Below, piece after piece: positions 49,660 through 61,561 of a DNA stretch of 64,000 bases. Under the pieces are notes generated by a model, which was given only the letters and a program-made list of their open reading frames with translations, was not told the origin of the DNA and did not search any database. The stretch is from positions 62,001 through 126,000 of the forward strand of contig JADZAN010000018.1 of NCBI GenBank assembly GCA_020852815.1, given 5' to 3'. Positions within the stretch are counted from its first letter, which is position 1. Every line of letters begins with the position of its first letter. The position numbers and the translations under genes were made by a program. Source of the DNA: Gemmatimonadaceae bacterium. GTDB taxonomy: Bacteria; Gemmatimonadota; Gemmatimonadetes; Gemmatimonadales; Gemmatimonadaceae.

Positions 49660-49944
49660 TCACCGCAGCTCATCGAGGTCCGCGACAGCGCTCACCCGCC
49701 ACGTTCTCTCCGCGAGCTGGGCCCTCGCCCACGATGCAATCGTGTCGCGGTCCTGATCCGTAAGCTGCGCCGACTCGGACATCAGGACATAACGGGGAAT
49801 GTCGCCGCCGCCGCTGCAGACGAGACCTGACTCTCCTGAGAAACGCCACAACGCCACCTCGAACTGTTGCCTGGACGCGTCGGGCGTCCCGGGTGGCCAC
49901 TCGATGGAGAGGATGATGCCGAGTGAGGGACAGGCGCCGCTCAT
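49660..49944 (-). CDS. 94-residue protein coupled to a sodium symporter
   Basis: ATG 49944 overlaps the symporter's TGA (ATGA). The sequence SGACPSLGIILSIEWPPGTP leads to QQFEVALWRFSGESGLVCSGG, RYVLMSESAQLTDQDRDTIA, and ends SWARAQLAERTWRVSAVADL. No leader or membrane segment; probably cytoplasmic. I do not recognise it. The coupling to the transporter suggests a dedicated role, possibly modulating it, but this is inference. Confidence 0.65.
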   Translation of the reverse strand: MSGACPSLGIILSIEWPPGTPDASRQQFEVALWRFSGESGLVCSGGGDIPRYVLMSESAQLTDQDRDTIASWARAQLAERTWRVSAVADLDELR

Positions 49945-51380
49945 CCCCCTGCGCCCCCGAAGAATCGTTCCGTCACCTCTGGCGACGGCGGGGGCGTCCA
50001 CAGGCTCACTCCAAACATCAACAGCGCACTCACCAACACCCCCGCTTCGGCCGGGTCGAGCCCCAGCCAGTACGGCGTGCCGAAGCGCGACCAGACCAGG
50101 CACGCCACCATCCCGCCCAGCATCGACGCGATCGCCCCGGCGCGCGTGGCACGGCGCCAGTTGAGTCCCACGACGACCGGGATGAAGAGGAACGACACCA
50201 TCAGCTTCGCCGCCCAGATGACGATGAAGTTCACCAGGGAGAGCTGCCGGAAGGCGAGCAGCACGGGGATTGCGCTGAACGTGACCACGGCCACGCGGCT
50301 CGCCAGCACCTTCGCCCGTTCGCTCGCGCTGGGGACGAGCAGCTCGGCGTAGATGTCGTGCGAGACCGCGGATGCCACCGTGAGGAGGATCGCGCCGCCG
50401 GTGCGCGTGAATGTCACGACCGCCGCCAGCAGCACGAGCTGCCCGATGGCCGACGGCAGGACGCTCATCCCCAGCACCGGCGTCGCCAGGTCGGCTTGCG
50501 GCAGGAAGGGCATCGTCACTCGCATCGACAGCCCGAACAGGAGGACGCCGATCCCCACGCACGCCTGGAAGAAGAACGAGTAACCGATCGCCAGCCGCGT
50601 CGCGCGCCGGCTCTGCATGGAGTAGATGGCCGAGATCTCGTACGGCGATGCGGCAAGCCCGAGCCCGATCGCCATGGAGATCGCCAGGAGCTGCCGCCAC
50701 CCGAACCAGTTGCCGCTCAGTCGCGGATCGATCGACGTGATGGCCTCACCAACGGCGTGCAGGCCACCCAGATGCGACAGGAGGAAGGGGACCGCGAGCA
50801 CGTACCCGCCCAGCAGCAACACTGCTTTGAGCAACCCTACATACGCATTGCTGTACATCCCGCCCAGCACGGTGTAGACCGTCGTGATCCCGGCCACGAG
50901 GAGGACGGCGCGCTGGTACGGCATTCCGCCAACGAGCCCGAACAGGAGTCCGCCGGCCTGGTACTGCGCCGAGAGCATCATCGCGTACACGACGAGGATG
51001 AAGACCGCCGAGATCGCGCGCGCCGCCTTGCTCTCGAAGCGCTCGGCGAAGTAGTCGGGCAGGGTAAGCCCCGCGATGCGCCGGATGCGCGGGGCGACGA
51101 ACAGCGCGGCCACCACCCACCCGATCCAGGTCAGCGGCCACGTCCACGCGTAGCTGATCCCCGAGAAGTAGTGGAACCCCACCATCCCGATCGTGGCGCC
51201 CGCGCTCACCTGGTTGGCCATCAACGTGGCACCGCCCAGCAGCGGCCCTAACGAGCGGCCCGCCGCGAGGAACCCCTCCTCGGTCGAGGCGCGGCGGTAG
51301 TTGTACAACCCGATCCCGCACACCAGGGCGAGGTACGCCCCGACGACGAGATAGAACGTGGTGAGGTGCGCGCCGGTCAT
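49941..51380 (-). CDS. Sodium:solute symporter (SSF family)
   Basis: A 479-residue, roughly 13-segment membrane transporter of the PutP/PanF type. Start ATG 51380, overlapping the preceding TGA. SSF marks: YLALVCGIGLYNYRRASTEE, AAGRSLGPLLGGATLMANQV with the sodium-binding region, SAGATIGMVGFHYFSG, YAWTWPLTWIGWVVAALFVA, and LTLPDYFAERFESKAARA. Typically imports amino acids, organic acids, sugars or vitamins with sodium. The operon context (deacylase first) suggests an amino-acid-like product. A TTA-GGG Leu-Gly pair at 51246 comes from CCCTAACG. Confidence 0.93.
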   Translation of the reverse strand: MTGAHLTTFYLVVGAYLALVCGIGLYNYRRASTEEGFLAAGRSLGPLLGGATLMANQVSAGATIGMVGFHYFSGISYAWTWPLTWIGWVVAALFVAPRIRRIAGLTLPDYFAERFESKAARAISAVFILVVYAMMLSAQYQAGGLLFGLVGGMPYQRAVLLVAGITTVYTVLGGMYSNAYVGLLKAVLLLGGYVLAVPFLLSHLGGLHAVGEAITSIDPRLSGNWFGWRQLLAISMAIGLGLAASPYEISAIYSMQSRRATRLAIGYSFFFQACVGIGVLLFGLSMRVTMPFLPQADLATPVLGMSVLPSAIGQLVLLAAVVTFTRTGGAILLTVASAVSHDIYAELLVPSASERAKVLASRVAVVTFSAIPVLLAFRQLSLVNFIVIWAAKLMVSFLFIPVVVGLNWRRATRAGAIASMLGGMVACLVWSRFGTPYWLGLDPAEAGVLVSALLMFGVSLWTPPPSPEVTERFFGGAGG

Positions 51381-52159
51381 GTGTCCGACTCCGACTGGCG
51401 CAGCGCCCACCACTGGTACACGGGAACCCACACCACGAGGATCGCCACGAGGAGCCAGAAGCGCCACGAAAGCCCGCCGTCGTCGCCACGAGGCACCGTC
51501 TCGCCACAACGCGCCGCATCGTCCGTCAGGCGCACATGCACGAACGACGGCAGCGCGACCAGGCGAGCGCTCCACGTGCGCGAACCCTCGTGCTCGAATC
51601 GCGGGAAGGTCACGGAGGCGCGGTCATCCGGGACGCGCACCGTCACCTGCACGTTTCCCAACCGGGCGTTGGCGCCGCGCGGAATGGGAAAGGTGGGGAT
51701 CACGATCGGAACATCGACGGCGCCCGCCGTACGCGTCACGGTGTAACGCAGCGCGAAGCCGGTGCGCGTCCCGCGCGCTGAGGTGAGCGTATCCGCGAGC
51801 GCGCGCCAGGCACCGTCTGCGCGCGCGGCGAGCGAGACAACGGTCGCGCCATCGTCGAGGAGCACGTCGCCCACGCTGGCGCAGGGGCGCGCCAGGTACT
51901 GGAACGCGGCGCGCCGGCTGGTGTCGCCGCTATCGGCCGCCAGCCGCACGCGCGTCACCACCTGCCATCGATCGCTGGTATCGGCGTCGATGGTGACGAG
52001 AACGGCCACGCTGTCGCTCCCCGGCGCAGCGGTGGCGGGCTGCTGTGCAAAGCTCGCGCGCGCGATGAAGGTCGACAGCAGCAATGCGGTCGAGCCGGCG
52101 ATACTGCGCGCGTATCGGCGCGCCACGCCCTGCGAATACCTCTCACGCGTCAGTCGCAC
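51377..52159 (-). CDS. Secreted beta-rich protein with C-terminal membrane anchor, function unknown
   Basis: A 260-residue protein with a leader (SIAGSTALLLSTFIARASFA then QQPA), a beta-rich body (SVAVLVTIDADTSDRWQVVTRV, GNVQVTVRVPDD) with two Cys (ARPCASV, DDAARCGE) that could pair, and a C-terminal transmembrane helix (SWRFWLLVAILVVWVPVYQW) with a short polar tail. It would face the periplasm. It begins six bases after the AstE-like gene and overlaps the symporter gene by four bases. Not recognised. Confidence 0.75.
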   Translation of the reverse strand: MRLTRERYSQGVARRYARSIAGSTALLLSTFIARASFAQQPATAAPGSDSVAVLVTIDADTSDRWQVVTRVRLAADSGDTSRRAAFQYLARPCASVGDVLLDDGATVVSLAARADGAWRALADTLTSARGTRTGFALRYTVTRTAGAVDVPIVIPTFPIPRGANARLGNVQVTVRVPDDRASVTFPRFEHEGSRTWSARLVALPSFVHVRLTDDAARCGETVPRGDDGGLSWRFWLLVAILVVWVPVYQWWALRQSESDT

Positions 52160-52165
52160 GCGCCG

Positions 52166-53137
52166 TCAGTCGTCGTACGTCGTGGCCTGCGACGCGTCGC
52201 CCATCATGAAGGCGTAGTCGCCGGGATGGATACGCGTGCGATAGTTGCGGCACAGCACGACGATGTTGCGCGCGAATGGCGTCACCATCGTCTCCAGCGT
52301 CTCGAAGGTGTACGGCGAGACGATGTCGGCCAGCGGCTCCCCCTCGCCCAGCTCCTCGCCCGGCGTGAGCACGCGTCGCGGGACGCAGATTCCCCCCTGG
52401 CGCGGGCGCATTACCTTCATCACTCGCATCAGGCGCTGCCCGGCGCGACGCTCCACCGCCCCCTCCAGCACGCCAGCATAGCGCAGTTGGTTGAGCACTC
52501 CGTTCACCCCGTTCTCCACGTGTAGCGCCTGCGACTGGTACCCTCCCCCGATCTCCACCACCATGCAGCGCACCCCTTGCTTCTCCGCATACGTCGCGGT
52601 CGTTCCCGAGTACATCTCGGCGGGCTTGTACAGGAGCGCAGAGCTGAAGGCGCGCGACAGTCCTTCATCGTTCACCACGTAGCAGTAGTCGACCCACGGA
52701 AAGGTGCCGCCGCAATGGATGTCGACGAGGTAGTCGAGGTGGTCGATGAAACCATGGGCGATCGCGTGCGCCTGCTGCTCGCCCAGCCAACCATCCGGCG
52801 CACCGGGAAAGAGGCGGTTCATGTCGAGCATGTCGATCGGCGTATTGCGCGAGATCGCTTCCATCGCCAGCGGGTTCGCCACGCCAAGGATCCAGAGCTG
52901 TCCCGCCAGCTGCGCCGGATCGAGCCGTTCCCATAGCTCGCGGGCGATGAGCAGCCCTTCGAACTCGTCGCCGTGAATCATCGCCGAGACGCCGACCGTG
53001 GGCCCGGGGCGCCCTCCCTCGATGATGTGAATCGTGAGCGCGAGCGCATGACCGCTGGCGAGCGTCGTGATCGGGACGTTGAGGCGCGAACGCCCGGGAG
53101 AGAGCCGGGTGCTCACGATGGACGAGTCGTTGGGCAT
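52166..53137 (-). CDS. Succinylglutamate desuccinylase/aspartoacylase-family zinc hydrolase
   Basis: A 323-residue enzyme from ATG 53137, without a leader. The fold and motifs follow the AstE/AspA branch of M14-like hydrolases: GPTVGVSAMIHGDEFEG with His and Glu ligands, NPLAMEAISRNTP, DMNRLFPG, DYLVDIHCGGT with the third His, and VVEIGGGYQ with the catalytic Glu. Such enzymes release an acid from an N-acylated amino acid or, in the agmatine-like subgroup, from acyl-diamines. It is first in a run of four coupled genes ending with a sodium symporter. The substrate is unknown. Confidence 0.9.
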   Translation of the reverse strand: MPNDSSIVSTRLSPGRSRLNVPITTLASGHALALTIHIIEGGRPGPTVGVSAMIHGDEFEGLLIARELWERLDPAQLAGQLWILGVANPLAMEAISRNTPIDMLDMNRLFPGAPDGWLGEQQAHAIAHGFIDHLDYLVDIHCGGTFPWVDYCYVVNDEGLSRAFSSALLYKPAEMYSGTTATYAEKQGVRCMVVEIGGGYQSQALHVENGVNGVLNQLRYAGVLEGAVERRAGQRLMRVMKVMRPRQGGICVPRRVLTPGEELGEGEPLADIVSPYTFETLETMVTPFARNIVVLCRNYRTRIHPGDYAFMMGDASQATTYDD

Positions 53138-55735: not shown

Positions 55736-56434
55736 TCACGCCCGCACGCCAAGTGGTGCGGGCAATAATCCGGCGGACAGCGTCACCACCTCCTGCCCGG
55801 CGCGAAACCAGTGAGCCGGCCTTGGCCCCGCCAGCTGCACGTCGCTCCCGCGCACCCGCAACCAATCCCCCTCCGGGACCCCCAGCACATGCACCGCCGA
55901 GTTTGCCACGAGAAACTCGGCCAACCGCTGGGCCCGCGTCTCCCCCTGGTGACCGGCCGGAAGCTCGTTGGTGAAGTGCGGGTTGACCTGAAAGTCGAGG
56001 AAACCCAGCGCATCGAAGCCGCGGGGATCGACGATGGGCATGTCGTTCGTCGTGCGGATGGTGGGGCAGGCGAGGTTGGAGCCCGCGCTCCAGCCGATGT
56101 ACGGAGCGCCCGCGCGCACCTGTCGCTGGATGCGTGGCAGCAATCCCGCGTCGCGGCACTCCTTGAGCAGGTGAAAGGTGTTCCCGCCACCTACCATCAC
56201 CACCTCGCACTCCTCGAGCACCGCTCCCTCATGCGCCGACCGGATGTCGAGCCGCAACGGCTCGAGCGCCGAGCGCACGTTGTTCGCATAGTCGTCCCAC
56301 GACACCGTCACGCCGGCAAACGGGACGAAGAAGATACGTCGCCGCTCGCCGACGATCTCGGCGATCGCGTCGAGTGCGTGCGCGAGATAGGGCGCGCCGG
56401 TGTTGCGCGAGTTGCTCAGCAGCAGGAGTTCCAC
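55736..56434 (-). CDS. pepE: Peptidase E (alpha-aspartyl dipeptidase, S51)
   Basis: A 232-residue cytoplasmic dipeptidase that cuts Asp-X dipeptides. Started at GTG 56434, which overlaps the aroM-like stop by one base (TAGTG) and gives a length close to E. coli PepE (229). All three catalytic residues are placed as in E. coli with a uniform shift of four: Ser116 in YIGWSAGSN, Asp131 in TTNDMP, His153 in NPHFTNELP. It closes the OPT-DUF1177-AroM run and would process imported aspartyl peptides. Confidence 0.95.
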   Translation of the reverse strand: MELLLLSNSRNTGAPYLAHALDAIAEIVGERRRIFFVPFAGVTVSWDDYANNVRSALEPLRLDIRSAHEGAVLEECEVVMVGGGNTFHLLKECRDAGLLPRIQRQVRAGAPYIGWSAGSNLACPTIRTTNDMPIVDPRGFDALGFLDFQVNPHFTNELPAGHQGETRAQRLAEFLVANSAVHVLGVPEGDWLRVRGSDVQLAGPRPAHWFRAGQEVVTLSAGLLPAPLGVRA

Positions 56435-57129
56435 TACGCCCCCCACGAGGACACGAGTTCCGCCGTCACGCGCGCCGCGATGGCGTTCGAGAGCAACACC
56501 GGGAGTCCCGACGCCTCGACCGCTACCTGCCGATGGAACTCGGTGTAGCCAATGCAGTCGAGGACGATCGCCGCCGTGCCGCGTTCGCGTAGCGTCGCGG
56601 CGCCCACGCGCAACGCAGCCACGTCGTGTGCGTACGGCGACGCGGCCGCGTAGATCGGCGGCTGCACCATCGCCCCCCACTTCCCCGCCTCCGACGTCAC
56701 CTGCGCCGCATCCGGGACCATCACGCCTAACGCTCGCCCACCCACGATGGCCTTGAGCAGGGGAGGGATCACCCGGTCAGGCTCGACCAGCCACGCCGCG
56801 CGCGTCTCCAACCCGTGGAAGACGCCCGTGCACAGCACGACGATCACGCCGCACCCCTGCGATTCGAGCGTCTGCACCAGCGTGCGCACCGCCCCCTCGA
56901 CGCGCGCGCCGTCGAGCCGCACGCTCGTCCCGTCGAGGAGTCGTGTCACCAGCAGGCGATTGCCCGCGCGGTATCCGAAGCGTCCGGCGATCTCGTCAGG
57001 CGCAAGTCCGTCCAGTACTCCCACGTGCAGGCACGACGTCGCCGCCGGGAGGTGGCTCTCGAGAATCGGCGTCACGTCGCTTCGCGGCGCCTGCCCGATG
57101 GTGATCGTGCCGACGAGCGGGCGCGGCAT
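56434..57129 (-). CDS. AroM family protein
   Basis: A 231-residue protein. The pattern VGTITIGQAPRSDVTPILE at the start, GVLDGLAPDEIAGRF, and VIVVLCTGVFHGLE with a Cys is the AroM family, whose members include E. coli AroM of unknown activity. The C-terminal half (AAIVLDCIGYTEFHR) has a second conserved Cys, as in Asp/Glu racemase-like folds. It starts two bases after the DUF1177 stop and its TAG overlaps the pepE GTG. A TTA in RALGVMV comes from GCCTAACG at 56725. Confidence 0.88.
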   Translation of the reverse strand: MPRPLVGTITIGQAPRSDVTPILESHLPAATSCLHVGVLDGLAPDEIAGRFGYRAGNRLLVTRLLDGTSVRLDGARVEGAVRTLVQTLESQGCGVIVVLCTGVFHGLETRAAWLVEPDRVIPPLLKAIVGGRALGVMVPDAAQVTSEAGKWGAMVQPPIYAAASPYAHDVAALRVGAATLRERGTAAIVLDCIGYTEFHRQVAVEASGLPVLLSNAIAARVTAELVSSWGA

Positions 57130-57131
57130 CG

Positions 57132-58073
57132 TCAGGCGCTCCGCGCCGCGTGCCCCTGCAGCCGGCGCATGTCGCCGTACAGCGACACCAGCCGGTCGAA
57201 CTCCGCCGTGTCGTGCAGCTGGCACGTCCCGGCACCCACCTCCTTCGCCACTTCGATCGCGAAGCGCACGGCCTCGGCGATGTCCACTTCGTGGCTCGCC
57301 CCCGTTCCGCACCCCGGCACCACCGTCTCCGCGCCAATCGCGATCCCGACCACCGGCGCAGCAGTCGCTGTCGCCGGCTGCAAGATGCTGTTGATGTGGT
57401 CCACCCCGTTTCCGTACGGCGTGATGTCCTGCATCGTGACGGGGAAGGTCACCGGCGCGCGCCCAGTCGTCATCTCCATCACGCGCAGCAGGTCGGGCGA
57501 CACGCGCAGGATCCACCCCTCCTTCACCGTGGGCGAGATGGCGATGCCGCGATGGTTGAGGACGCGGTTCCCCTTCGTCGTGTCGATCGAGAGCACCGCG
57601 TCCATCTCCGGCGTCACTTCGCGCGCATTCATGATCTCGATCGACACCGGCGAATCCATGAAGTCCACCGGGGAGTGCGGCTTGGTGGGGGCGTTGGGGC
57701 AGATGTGGGTGCAGACGATCACGTCACCGGCAAGCACGTCACCGGCGCGACGCATCGCCGCGAGCTTGCGCGCGATGGCCACCGCCGCCACCGCGCCATC
57801 TGCGTCGGACACCAACCCGATGCGTTGCGGCCGTGCTCCCACTCCGCCCAGTCGCCCAACGATCCCCAGCGTGGGGGCGCTGCCACCGGCCGCGCGTCCC
57901 CGCGCTCCCCGGATGTCGATGCGGACGAAGTCAGTCGAGCCCTTCTCCCCGCGCACCGTCTCCGTCGTGACCGTGATGCCATCGCCGTCGCCCACCAGGT
58001 CGATGACGGTGCCGGCGCTGGCCGTCGGCGAGTCGAGCGCTTCGAAGGCGGCGAGTGTGTGGGCGAGGCTCAT
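57132..58073 (-). CDS. DUF1177 family protein
   Basis: A 313-residue cytoplasmic protein matching DUF1177: VRIDIRGARGRAAGG, DVIVCTHICPNAPTKPHSP, DFMDSPVSIEIMN, HRGIAISPTVKEGWIL, TMQDITPYGNGVDHINSIL, and GCGTGASHEVDIAEAVRFA. Conserved His, Asp and Cys residues suggest metal-dependent chemistry, but none is established. Its company, an OPT transporter, AroM and peptidase E, recurs in other genomes as far as I recall and points to peptide or D-amino-acid use. Confidence 0.9.
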   Translation of the reverse strand: MSLAHTLAAFEALDSPTASAGTVIDLVGDGDGITVTTETVRGEKGSTDFVRIDIRGARGRAAGGSAPTLGIVGRLGGVGARPQRIGLVSDADGAVAAVAIARKLAAMRRAGDVLAGDVIVCTHICPNAPTKPHSPVDFMDSPVSIEIMNAREVTPEMDAVLSIDTTKGNRVLNHRGIAISPTVKEGWILRVSPDLLRVMEMTTGRAPVTFPVTMQDITPYGNGVDHINSILQPATATAAPVVGIAIGAETVVPGCGTGASHEVDIAEAVRFAIEVAKEVGAGTCQLHDTAEFDRLVSLYGDMRRLQGHAARSA

Positions 58074-58153
58074 GACGTGGAACGACGTGTGAAGGTTGGA
58101 CGCATAACGAGCGCGGCGGCTCCGCGTGCACTCGGCAGGGACTCAGCGGGGGC

Positions 58154-59782
58154 TCAGCGTCCCCGAGACGCGCTTCCGCCCTGGCGCACCATGGCGTCGC
58201 CGAAGGCAAAGAGCGCGTCGCCGGCAATGAAACCTGCCGCCATCGCCTCCAGTGCGCGAGGGTCGGTCCGGGGGCGCAGCCTCGGCACGGCAAGGCGGAC
58301 CACGAGCCCGGCCAGCACCGCCCACCCCGCCGCCGGGTTGGCGATGAGCAATCCCGTGGCCAGCAGCACGCCGAGCTGTCGCGCCGATCCACCCGCCAGT
58401 TGCAACACGGCCCCGGGAATGGCCCACAGCAGGAGCGCGCGCGCCACCCCCGGCTCCACCCCCGACTGGATCGTCGCCACGTACACGCGCGCCACCGGCG
58501 GCACGAGGTCGCGCGCGAAGTAGCCGCGCCAGGCGAGGAGCACCACGACCCCCGCCGTGAGGAAGGCGGCCATCGCCGCGATGAACTGTTCGCGACGTCC
58601 CACGCGCTCGAACGCCGCATCGCGCCCCTCGTCGCGCAGGAGGAAACCAGCCTTGAGGTCGTACCCCATGTCGGCGAAAGCCGGCCCGGTGCTCACCGAA
58701 AAGCCCGCCAGCAGCGCCAGCGGGACCGGTGGGAAGCCGAGCAGCATGCCGACGATCAGCGTGATGAGCGCGACGGCGAACGCCGGGAACCAGCCGGAGT
58801 GCATTGCCGCCAACCCCACCAGGATCTCGTGGACCAGCGCCGCCAGCGCCGCATACACGATGAAGGCCGCCAGTTGCAATGGCTGCAGCTCCGCCCATGC
58901 GCCACCCGCCAGCGCAATGATCGCCGCGATCGTCACGAAGCCGGCGAAGCCGAACGCCATCGTGCGCCCCACGCCGCCGTCGTGGGGTCGAGATGTCTCC
59001 TGCCCATCGACCGCGTTAGGTGCGCCGCCCGGGTTCCCACCCCGGCTCCCGCCGCGCATCGACGCCACCACCTGCCCCAGCGCCACCAGCCCCGCACCGA
59101 TCATCATCCCGTGCGGGATGCGCAGCGCCAGCAGGTCCACCCCCGCCACGCGCCCTCCGTATCCACTCGCCAGCAGTCCGCACCCGAACATCGCCAGCGC
59201 CCATGCGTTGCCGATGAACGCCGTCCCGAACGCCGCCATCGGGACGTGCAGCCACGACCCAAGCATCCCCAGCGCCACGCTCCCGCCTAACAACGCGCCG
59301 CGCTTTCCCCCCTCATCGCCGGCGCGAATCGCCTCCGCTGCCGCGCGCCCCGGCGGCCACGCCCCAGTCGCGGGAAAGGCCGGCGTGTCGAACATCCGAT
59401 ACAGCAGCGTGGCGTCCAGCAGCATCGCCAACGCCACGCCGACAAACATTGGCAGCACGAGGTCCGGGCGCCCCAGCACCCACGGCACTCCCATTGGAAG
59501 GAGGAGCGAGTTCGCCGCCCCGAACGTCGCCGCCGAGATCGCGCTCTGCGCCAGGTTCTGCGCGTGCACCGAGCGGAAGACGCGCAGCGGCGCCAGCGGC
59601 AGCCGCCCGATCACCATCGCCAGCAACGCCCCGATCAGCGACGTGTTCGGCGTGACGCCAAGCGTGGTGAGCAGCTGCATCCCCACCACCGCACCGAGCA
59701 CGCTGATGAGGAGGATGGGGACGAGGACCGCGGGCGCGAGCGTGCGCGGGTGGGTCACGCTCGGCATGCCACGGAGCGTCAT
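58154..59782 (-). CDS. OPT/YSL-family oligopeptide transporter
   Basis: A 542-residue polytopic protein with at least 12 hydrophobic segments and short loops, e.g. PAVLVPILLISVLGAVVGMQL, NTSLIGALLAMVIGRLPLAP, LVLPMFVGVALAMLLDATLL, and AALITLIVGMLLGFPPVPL-like segments in the middle. Members import small peptides or metal chelates with protons. An insert near the middle (GGSRGGNPGGAPNAVDGQE) is a soluble loop. It is the first gene of the run with DUF1177, AroM and pepE (gap of 80 bases to DUF1177). Two ATGs, 59782 and 59767, are possible. Confidence 0.82.
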   Translation of the reverse strand: MTLRGMPSVTHPRTLAPAVLVPILLISVLGAVVGMQLLTTLGVTPNTSLIGALLAMVIGRLPLAPLRVFRSVHAQNLAQSAISAATFGAANSLLLPMGVPWVLGRPDLVLPMFVGVALAMLLDATLLYRMFDTPAFPATGAWPPGRAAAEAIRAGDEGGKRGALLGGSVALGMLGSWLHVPMAAFGTAFIGNAWALAMFGCGLLASGYGGRVAGVDLLALRIPHGMMIGAGLVALGQVVASMRGGSRGGNPGGAPNAVDGQETSRPHDGGVGRTMAFGFAGFVTIAAIIALAGGAWAELQPLQLAAFIVYAALAALVHEILVGLAAMHSGWFPAFAVALITLIVGMLLGFPPVPLALLAGFSVSTGPAFADMGYDLKAGFLLRDEGRDAAFERVGRREQFIAAMAAFLTAGVVVLLAWRGYFARDLVPPVARVYVATIQSGVEPGVARALLLWAIPGAVLQLAGGSARQLGVLLATGLLIANPAAGWAVLAGLVVRLAVPRLRPRTDPRALEAMAAGFIAGDALFAFGDAMVRQGGSASRGR

Positions 59783-59815
59783 CGGCAGGTTGAAGACACT
59801 TGCACCTCGAAACGC

Positions 59816-61561
59816 CTAACGCACCCGCACAAACCGCAGGTGCCGCACCCGCCCCGATTCCACCAGGTAGCCGGTAATGCGCCCCCTGGCGTCGCGCTGC
59901 ACGTCGAACACCGCGCCCCCGCGCACGAAGCCGTCCTTGTACGCCGGCTCCATCACGCCCAGCCGGCGGTTGTTGGCGTACGCCACCAGCTCCCCCTTCT
60001 CGACACGCCACGACTGCGTCGTCTCGATCTCGTCGTTGCGGTACTCCCCCGCGTACTCGGCCAGCGCCGCCGCCGTCAGCGACACGGTGTCGGCACGCGT
60101 CCACGTCACCGTCTCGGCCGCCGTGCGCGTCACCATCCGCGACGGTGCGCCAGCGTTTCCCTCGAAGCGCAGCTCGGTCGCGTTGCCGGCGCGATAGCGC
60201 CCACCGCCCAGTGCCACGACGCGCGCGCGCTCGCCGTCCAGCGAGACCAGCGTGTCGCCCGCCAGTCGCAGCCTGCGCACCTCGCCACGCTCCACGTTGC
60301 GCCACACCCCGGTCAGCGTGCGCAGCGCCGATGCTGGTTCCTCGACTTTCGGCGCCGCCGAGAGCGCTGCTCCCCACTCAACCGCGCTGTCTCGCTGCAT
60401 CCGGTCGCCCAGGTAGATGCCTGCGACCTTTCGGGCCAGCGAGTCCGGCCCCGACGTCGACAGGTTGCAGAACGTCGAGATCGCCATGCGCTGGTCGGGA
60501 AAGCGGAGGAAGTGCCCGCGATACCCCGCCCAGCTCCCGCCATGCGAGACGACGCGCAACCCGCGCATGGTCCCAACGGAGAGCCCGACCGCGTACGCCT
60601 GCGTCGCGCCGGAGGTGGCCGGCGTCCCATCGTTGAGCGTCGTCGCCGTCGTCATCGTGGTGATGATGTCGCGACTGCCCACGGTGGCGGCGTCGTAGTT
60701 GTCCAGCCAGCGCCCGAAGTCCTCCACCGTGGTGTGCACAGCGCCGGCTCCCATGATTGCCCCGTCATACGGCGAGCGCGCAACGCGGAAGCCGCCACCG
60801 GCACGCGGTGCGTAGGCTGTTGCCAGGTTGGGAATGACCAGCGATGCATCCGACAGGTAGCGCGTGTCGAGCATGCCTAACGGCTTGAAGATCCGCTCGT
60901 CGGCAAACTGCGCCAGCGTCTTCCCCGTGAGGCGGTAGACGATCTGCGCCGCGAGGATCCACCCCGAGTTGGTGTAGAGGTAACGCGCCCCCGGCTCGTA
61001 GTTGGGCTCCGCCGAGCGCGTGATCACGCGCAACGCATCCACCGTGTCGCCGGCGAAGGCGCGCCCGGTCTGGCTCCACATCACGTAGAGGTCGCGCAGC
61101 CCGCTCGTCTGCGACAGCGCACGGCGCAGCGTCACGCGGTCGGCATAGGCAGGCATCTCCGGGATGTACTTACGGATCGGGTCGTCGAGCGAAAGCTTCC
61201 CCTCCTGCTGCAGCAGCAGGATCGCCATCGCCGTGAACTGCTTCGAGATCGACCCCACGTCGAGCACGGAGCGCGGCGAGAGGGCGACGCCGAGCTCCAG
61301 GCTCGCCATCCCGTAGCCACGCGCGTAGAGCACCTTCCCGTCATGGTACACGCCGAGCGCGCATCCCGGCGAGTCGGTGCGATCGAAGCGCTGGAAGACC
61401 GAGTCGGCGCGCAGCGCTCGGGCGTCGCGTGTGCCGATGATGTGCTGCGCAGGCGCAACGGCTGGCGTGGCGAGCGTCGCGAGCTGCAACGCTCCAACGA
61501 ACGCCCAACGCGAGAGACGCTTCGCGTGGGCGGGGGACGAAAGACGGAAATGGCGTCGCAT
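59816..61561 (-). CDS. Secreted class C beta-lactamase-like serine hydrolase with DUF3471 tail
   Basis: A 581-residue protein with a signal peptide ending TPAVAPAQ. Catalytic SxxK is SISK (Ser104-Lys107) in LDVGSISKQFT, YxN is in ARYLYTNSGW, and the third motif is VSHGGSWAGYRGHF. The C-terminal part (about 400-581) is a beta-barrel-like DUF3471 region (LTGVWRNVERGEVRRL, YAGEYRNDEIETTQSW). Such proteins are D-aminopeptidases, esterases or peptidoglycan carboxypeptidases rather than resistance lactamases. The stop TAG is supplied by GCCTAACG (59814). It lies upstream of the OPT gene on the same strand (33 bases). Confidence 0.93.
   Translation of the reverse strand: MRRHFRLSSPAHAKRLSRWAFVGALQLATLATPAVAPAQHIIGTRDARALRADSVFQRFDRTDSPGCALGVYHDGKVLYARGYGMASLELGVALSPRSVLDVGSISKQFTAMAILLLQQEGKLSLDDPIRKYIPEMPAYADRVTLRRALSQTSGLRDLYVMWSQTGRAFAGDTVDALRVITRSAEPNYEPGARYLYTNSGWILAAQIVYRLTGKTLAQFADERIFKPLGMLDTRYLSDASLVIPNLATAYAPRAGGGFRVARSPYDGAIMGAGAVHTTVEDFGRWLDNYDAATVGSRDIITTMTTATTLNDGTPATSGATQAYAVGLSVGTMRGLRVVSHGGSWAGYRGHFLRFPDQRMAISTFCNLSTSGPDSLARKVAGIYLGDRMQRDSAVEWGAALSAAPKVEEPASALRTLTGVWRNVERGEVRRLRLAGDTLVSLDGERARVVALGGGRYRAGNATELRFEGNAGAPSRMVTRTAAETVTWTRADTVSLTAAALAEYAGEYRNDEIETTQSWRVEKGELVAYANNRRLGVMEPAYKDGFVRGGAVFDVQRDARGRITGYLVESGRVRHLRFVRVR

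Follow-up and report, generated by a model that had tools for sequence, protein, structure and literature searches.

Several transporters of the solute:sodium symporter (SSS) family are co-encoded with a small membrane partner, as ActP is with a DUF485 protein and transporters of the VC_2705 type are with a DUF4212 protein; to our knowledge, these partners have no large periplasmic beta-domain. A coupled small protein also accompanies CbrA, an SLC5/SSS transceptor of Pseudomonas. According to the available portion of its description, CbrX is a translationally coupled small protein that packs onto CbrA, and the SSS-domain protein CbrA is H+-driven and carries Lys196 of transmembrane helix (TM) 6 in the Na2 site (PMC13022988); a review, as far as its text was available, lists CbrA without Na2 residues (PMC7918813). 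In another family, Arg262 of the BCCT antiporter CaiT has been proposed as a Na2 replacement (PMC6472337, in part), and CaiT is described as an H+- and Na+-independent antiporter (PMC11708041, in part). Here, we analyzed a 64,000-nucleotide (nt) stretch (the window) of contig JADZAN010000018.1, positions 62,001 to 126,000, from the 5.38-Mb assembly of a Gemmatimonadaceae bacterium (GCA_020852815.1). It encodes an AstE/AspA-type deacylase, an anchored protein of 260 residues (p260) and an SSS transporter. We propose that these three genes may constitute an operon for uptake and cleavage in Gemmatimonadota, with p260 as an accessory protein and a transporter that works without Na+; taken as a whole, we regard this reading as evenly balanced.

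The cassette resembles CbrX–CbrA in that a small membrane protein is coupled upstream of an SSS protein with a basic Na2-site residue. CbrA differs by its fused histidine kinase, and CbrX, in the part of the source at hand, is a 58-residue helical hairpin without an ectodomain (PMC13022988). Moreover, Lys196 of CbrA lies in TM6, whereas Arg326 of the window transporter replaces a Ser of core transmembrane helix (cTM) 8. CaiT shares with the window transporter the LeuT fold and an Arg proposed for Na2, but it belongs to another family and its Arg262 is located in TM5. We know of no amidase partner of CaiT. No p260-type partner of an SSS transporter was found in the literature searched, which included few subscription journals.

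All genes of the cassette lie on the minus strand. The deacylase (323 residues, 52166..53137) has no visible signal peptide and was therefore read as cytosolic. The p260 gene (51377..52159) begins with GTG 6 nt past the deacylase stop, the gene of the 479-residue SSS transporter (49941..51380) shares an ATGA overlap with it, and the start of a 94-residue open reading frame (ORF), p94 (49660..49944), overlaps the transporter stop, again as ATGA. Re-reading of the ORFs thus recovered the four genes of the original prediction, with the gap of six bases and both ATGA overlaps; that prediction had taken this coupling as a sign of one function. The order AstE, p260, SSS was retained in 6/6 Gemmatimonadota loci with sufficient contig (the window, G013, G030, G029, G376 and ES-bin-29 [L055]); a seventh locus, L057, is interrupted by a contig end and was not included in the operon count. 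This conserved order is more than chance. In all six loci the p260 and SSS genes overlap by 4 nt, and the spacing between the deacylase and p260 genes varies from a 13-nt overlap up to about 100 nt. Identity to the window proteins is 60–75% for AstE (L057 included), 28–41% for p260 and 70–83% for the transporter.

Close AstE homologues were found in four of 60 relatives (own genome, which is counted among the 60, G013, G030 and G029), and p260 was found in the same four. AstE matches at E ≤ 1e-50 occurred in 5/395 phylum genomes; this search added G376, and its match in G281 is distant. A scan of further genome contigs with the deacylase contributed ES-bin-29 (L055) and L057 as new loci, and the other three loci repeated G376, G013 and G029. 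The cassette-bearing loci that are named come from Gemmatimonadaceae/Gemmatimonadetes metagenome-assembled genomes. One functional unit is therefore supported for the deacylase, p260 and the transporter, whose order is conserved, and does not extend to p94, which is missing from the other cassettes. The neighborhood comparison proposed earlier divided in the same way: p260 homologues stay beside the SSS gene, whereas p94 has a homologue at an unrelated locus only.

The pairing of p260 with the transporter extends beyond the AstE-coupled lineage. SSS orthologues at E ≤ 1e-80 were present in 28/390 phylum genomes, and at all 28 loci, read by eye, a p260-type ORF with a C-terminal hydrophobic segment lies upstream. 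An automatic filter (signal peptide, single C-terminal TM, length; start codons were set automatically and some are wrong) passed 26 of these ORFs, missing the window's own p260 and that of L088, in which no signal peptide was seen; three ORFs that passed (L082, L086 and L090) score negatively under the codon model of the window. The p260 profile matched in 6/390 phylum genomes, every time adjoining an SSS gene. Among the 30 listed SSS loci of 12 genomes, p260-like profiles matched 11, ten of the clade plus L124 (with the group D profile), and none of the 19 control SSS loci outside the clade. Two of these control loci, L108 and L110, have upstream ORFs of 130–137 residues with a C-terminal hydrophobic stretch that the p260 profiles do not match. 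A tree was built from 45 distinct SSS sequences, five loci having yielded no ORF; in it, all 25 p260-bearing sequences and L124 formed one clade with support 1.0. Profile comparison of the ectodomains linked group A, the window's group, to group C (E 2.7e-10) and group B to group C (9.3e-10); the A–D link is weak (2.7e-4), and A–B, B–D and C–D are not convincing. As judged from these comparisons, p260 regularly precedes the transporters of one SSS clade. Several group B and D loci have an additional single-TM gene of 52–125 residues between the p260-like and SSS genes (L098, 6618-6995; L092/L093, 1319-1477, on the SSS strand), overlapping the SSS gene by 4 nt; one such protein was tested and has no Pfam family, and CbrX may be compared.

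It could be argued that p260 is no subunit at all, being a separate periplasmic protein, such as a peptide binder or an envelope factor, that merely sits in the same operon. Its fast evolution (26–41% identity) beside a much better conserved transporter (70–83%) is consistent with this. The pairing, however, survives exchange of the enzyme, spans one SSS clade and is missing at 19/19 control loci, and the 4-nt overlap is kept throughout the AstE lineage, so that we rate a separate role as possible though somewhat doubtful.

p260 consists of an N-terminal hydrophobic segment, a periplasmic beta-domain (residues 49–214) and a C-terminal TM helix, and two Cys, 93 and 218, are invariant in the group alignment. 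No Pfam or NCBIfam family scored above cut-off, a profile search of the Protein Data Bank (PDB) gave no match, and a PHROGs search gave nothing useful. An AlphaFold model built from 6 sequences (predicted local distance difference test [pLDDT] 72.9) shows an N-terminal helix, the beta-domain and the C-terminal TM helix. M1/M61 peptidases and ribophorin I made up most of the top Foldseek matches of this model (E 1.5e-5), and all VIA-align rows shown were of the M1 family or ribophorin I, at 4–11% identity and Z 9-10. Against LTA4 hydrolase, VIA-align gave Z 10.2 with a root-mean-square deviation of 3.6 over 142 aligned residues at 6% identity. Because models without a clear match typically reach a best Z of 7–8 in VIA-align, the predicted resemblance of the ectodomain to the N-terminal beta-domain (domain I) of M1 aminopeptidases is moderate, and it concerns the fold only. 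Unlike M1 aminopeptidases, p260 is membrane-anchored, appears as the partner of a transporter and contains no zinc catalytic domain, the beta-domain being followed directly by the TM helix and no peptidase family scoring above cut-off. The original prediction had left this anchored beta-protein unrecognised; it now has a context, through its SSS-clade partnership and a modeled M1-type domain.

The enzyme upstream of p260 differs from lineage to lineage. In group A, AstE lies directly upstream of p260 in 6/6 loci. At 14 wider SSS loci of other groups, this slot is occupied by an M28 peptidase in 8/14 (six of one genus and two of another family; called by Pfam at L095, L096, L098 and L101, the rest by 90–92% identity to L098) and by an M19 dipeptidase in 2/14. 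The leaders of the M28, M19 and AstE proteins checked, in some of which the start codon is uncertain, are all less hydrophobic than the p260-group leaders, though that of the G376 AstE reaches 1.75. By family membership, the upstream enzymes have in common the intracellular hydrolysis of amides or peptides. Since AstE, M28 and M19 are all amide or peptide hydrolases, an amide-linked substrate is suggested, and the earlier proposal that such a compound is taken up and cleaved within the cell agrees with other amide hydrolases filling the slot beside related SSS genes. In group D, at L104 (7127-8182) and L105, the SSS gene is followed directly by a gene of the proline racemase family, with an M20 peptidase nearby, a possible sign that this group handles hydroxyproline or proline peptides.

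The deacylase of the window matched PF24827 (E 1.1e-23, 84.3 bits against a cut-off of 25), and its solved relatives include PDB entries 3cdx, 2qj8 and 6twl (DoeB). In the alignment to these relatives, the motif positions H54/E57 (IHGDE), H141 (DIH), N107-R108 and E195, presumably with zinc-binding and catalytic roles, are preserved. The assignment as an AstE/AspA-type deacylase was therefore upheld, by the family match and the preserved HxxE, His, Asn-Arg and Glu positions, and the preserved motif suggests that the enzyme is probably active. With DoeB, the N-acetyl-L-2,4-diaminobutyrate deacetylase (6twl/6twm), it has in common the fold family, the zinc/catalytic motif positions and the deacylase class, but the residues past the third zinc ligand differ (FPWVDYCYV). 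An identity with DoeB of the ectoine pathway was rejected, as TIGR02994 scored 93.7 bits against an NCBIfam cut-off of 402.7, and so was the AstE equivalog, as TIGR03242 scored 12.3 bits against 305.65. PF04952, which now models the hybrid domain while PF24827 models the catalytic one, had no match in the own genome. More distant AstE homologues (24–43% identity; L041-L048 and L059), left out of the operon count, neighbor amino-acid ABC transporters, peptide ABC permeases and oxidases. The one in G281 (L059, 42%), for which a TAA was reported within the match, adjoins peptide ABC permease, DAO oxidase and Amidohydro_3 genes and has neither p260 nor an SSS gene alongside.

The transporter matched the SSS family PF00474 (E 7.4e-49, 167.1 bits against a cut-off of 22.8), a LeuT-fold family with vSGLT, SGLT2 and CHT1 as solved relatives; no CbrA structure appeared among the PDB matches. 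The HMMER alignment of the SSS profile to vSGLT is ungapped through cTM8, so that Arg326 (codon 50403..50405, minus strand) faces S364, the first Na2 Ser, and Thr327 faces S365, in the vSGLT numbering that we take to apply. The two Ser/Thr of the cTM8 Na2 site are accordingly not both present, R326-T327 standing in place of S364-S365. In cTM5, Gly182 (50835..50837, minus strand) faces a conserved Asp/Glu and Lys185 (50826..50828, minus strand) a Gln. Across 90 distinct SSS loci, Arg326, Gly182, Lys185 and Gly329 were found in 6/6 of group A. In the 84 others, position 326 is Ser in 76, Thr in 2, Ala in 4, Gly in 1, Asn in 1 and Arg in none; position 182 is acidic in 76 (64 Asp, 12 Glu), Gln in 4 and Asn in 4; position 185 is Gln in 77, Lys in 4, Asn in 2 and Leu in 1; and position 329 is Gly in none. 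The Na2 Ser-Thr pair is retained in groups B, C and D, which are sisters of group A. In SiaT, which is outside the alignment used here, transport was lost with Ser342Ala or Ser343Ala and uptake was abolished with Asp182Ala, according to the part of the report available (PMC5931594).

Since the AstE-coupled SSS proteins (6/6) have Arg, Lys and Gly in place of the sodium-site side chains, the label "sodium symporter" of the original prediction is probably wrong. These replacements, together with the SiaT, CbrA and CaiT precedents, lead us to lean towards Na+-independent transport. A conventional Na+ symporter that carries an N-acyl amino acid, with Arg326 in the substrate site binding the substrate carboxylate, would agree with PF00474 membership, with the retained Thr327 and cTM1 "SAG" region, and with SiaT, which in the available text binds its acidic substrate through an Arg, albeit in Tm3 (PMC5931594). 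Against it stand the SiaT mutants and the replacement in 6/6 of the S364 equivalent, the cTM5 Asp and the neighboring Asp/Asn329, and we consider it unlikely. In another SSS group, L108-L111 (G000, G013, G030 and G131), Ala occupies the Na2 Ser position in all four; L108 has Lys185, and the totals of 4 Lys and 4 Ala point to the same residue in L109-L111. This group, which we take to be ActP-like, may be a second line that left Na+.

The conserved operon, the p260–SSS pairing, the hydrolase swap and the residue replacements are firm at the level of sequence; binding of p260 to the transporter, ion independence and substrate class are what we infer. In the proposed mechanism, the SSS-fold transporter would import a small compound with an amide bond, either an N-acyl amino acid or a dipeptide-like conjugate, through the inner membrane, and the cytosolic AstE/AspA-fold zinc enzyme would then cut that bond. 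p260, translated just ahead of the transporter and anchored through a single TM helix at its C-terminus, would serve as an accessory subunit whose M1-domain-I-like ectodomain, on the periplasmic face, may help in folding, in capturing the substrate or in gating. Na+ would no longer be used in the AstE-coupled lineage: Arg326 and Lys185 would replace the ion at the Na2 region, the acidic cTM5 residue being lost, and transport would consequently be H+-coupled or an exchange of substrate and product. The full combination, in which an SSS-fold exchanger swaps the amide substrate against the AstE cleavage product, with Arg326/Lys185 acting for sodium as proposed for Arg262 of CaiT and with p260, an orphan M1-type aminopeptidase beta-domain, as periplasmic gate, seems to us quite unlikely to hold in every part. 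Other lineages combine this p260–SSS chassis with an M28 or M19 enzyme. Alternatively, instead of importing the compound in bulk, the SSS protein might sense it as a transceptor and signal its presence, and p260 would relay or gate that signal. SSS domains do serve in sensors such as CbrA (PMC7918813 and PMC13022988, both in part), and a sensor could tolerate loss of its Na+ sites; yet this protein stops after the TM core, no kinase or regulator gene occurs within the cassettes, and the constant neighbor is a hydrolase, which fits catabolism. We regard a sensor as very improbable.

Several observations weigh against the proposed uptake and cleavage operon. Thr327, the second Na2 hydroxyl, is retained, and the 84 comparison SSS proteins come from a single phylum, with many close relatives among them. 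In the available text of the SiaT study, the Na2 site is conserved in just 54.2% of 39,612 SSS sequences (PMC5931594); loss of Na2 is thus not rare in itself, since 45.8% lack a conserved site, many of them of unknown coupling. Growth on histidine does not require CbrX, in the portion of the source available (PMC13022988); translational coupling by itself thus does not make a small protein essential. The homology of the A and B ectodomains is indirect (E 0.09) and goes via group C, and that of group D is weak. Confidence in the p260 model, built from 6 sequences, is middling (pLDDT 73), and the M1 likeness predicted from it, at 4–11% identity in the rows shown, is one of fold. At 4/20 wide loci no metallohydrolase lies directly upstream: L097 has an S9 peptidase there and an M19 farther up; L102 has a 211-residue unknown upstream and an M19 downstream; L103 has an S9 prolyl oligopeptidase whose linkage is not tight; and L094 has no same-strand enzyme, with an M55 D-aminopeptidase nearby. 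Finally, the genes downstream of the two cassettes scanned with Pfam there, M24 and amidohydrolase in G013, PP2C and amidohydrolases in G030, show no clear common pathway.

This SSS clade, conserved and equipped with a periplasmic partner of its own and with interchangeable cytosolic amidases, would represent a variant of SSS systems, and it offers substrate-class predictions for transporters so far annotated just as "sodium:solute symporter". The AstE branch would be a natural experiment on a LeuT-fold transporter departing from sodium; because its closest sister groups retain the Na2 Ser-Thr, residue swaps can probe the loss of sodium directly. It also cautions that Na+ coupling should not be read from family membership.

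p94, which the original prediction had counted as a member of the cassette, was absent from the other cassette loci searched, G013, G029 and G030 among them. It scored 15.2 bits against YggL_50S_bp (PF04320), under the gathering cut-off of 27. Besides the own genome, only 1/59 relatives, G017, has a homologue, which is a PF04320 member (3e-13, 51 bits) at an unrelated locus among unrelated genes; YggL genes occur in 4/60 relatives. A role as fourth subunit was ruled out, since p94 is missing from other cassettes and is YggL-like. On these matches, p94 is a diverged YggL-like passenger outside the conserved unit.

In addition, 2.6 kb upstream of the cassette and on the same strand, positions 55736-61561 (minus strand) of the window hold tightly packed genes for Peptidase_S51, AroM, DUF1177, OPT-transporter and beta-lactamase-fold proteins, a set that looks like a second peptide-scavenging operon.

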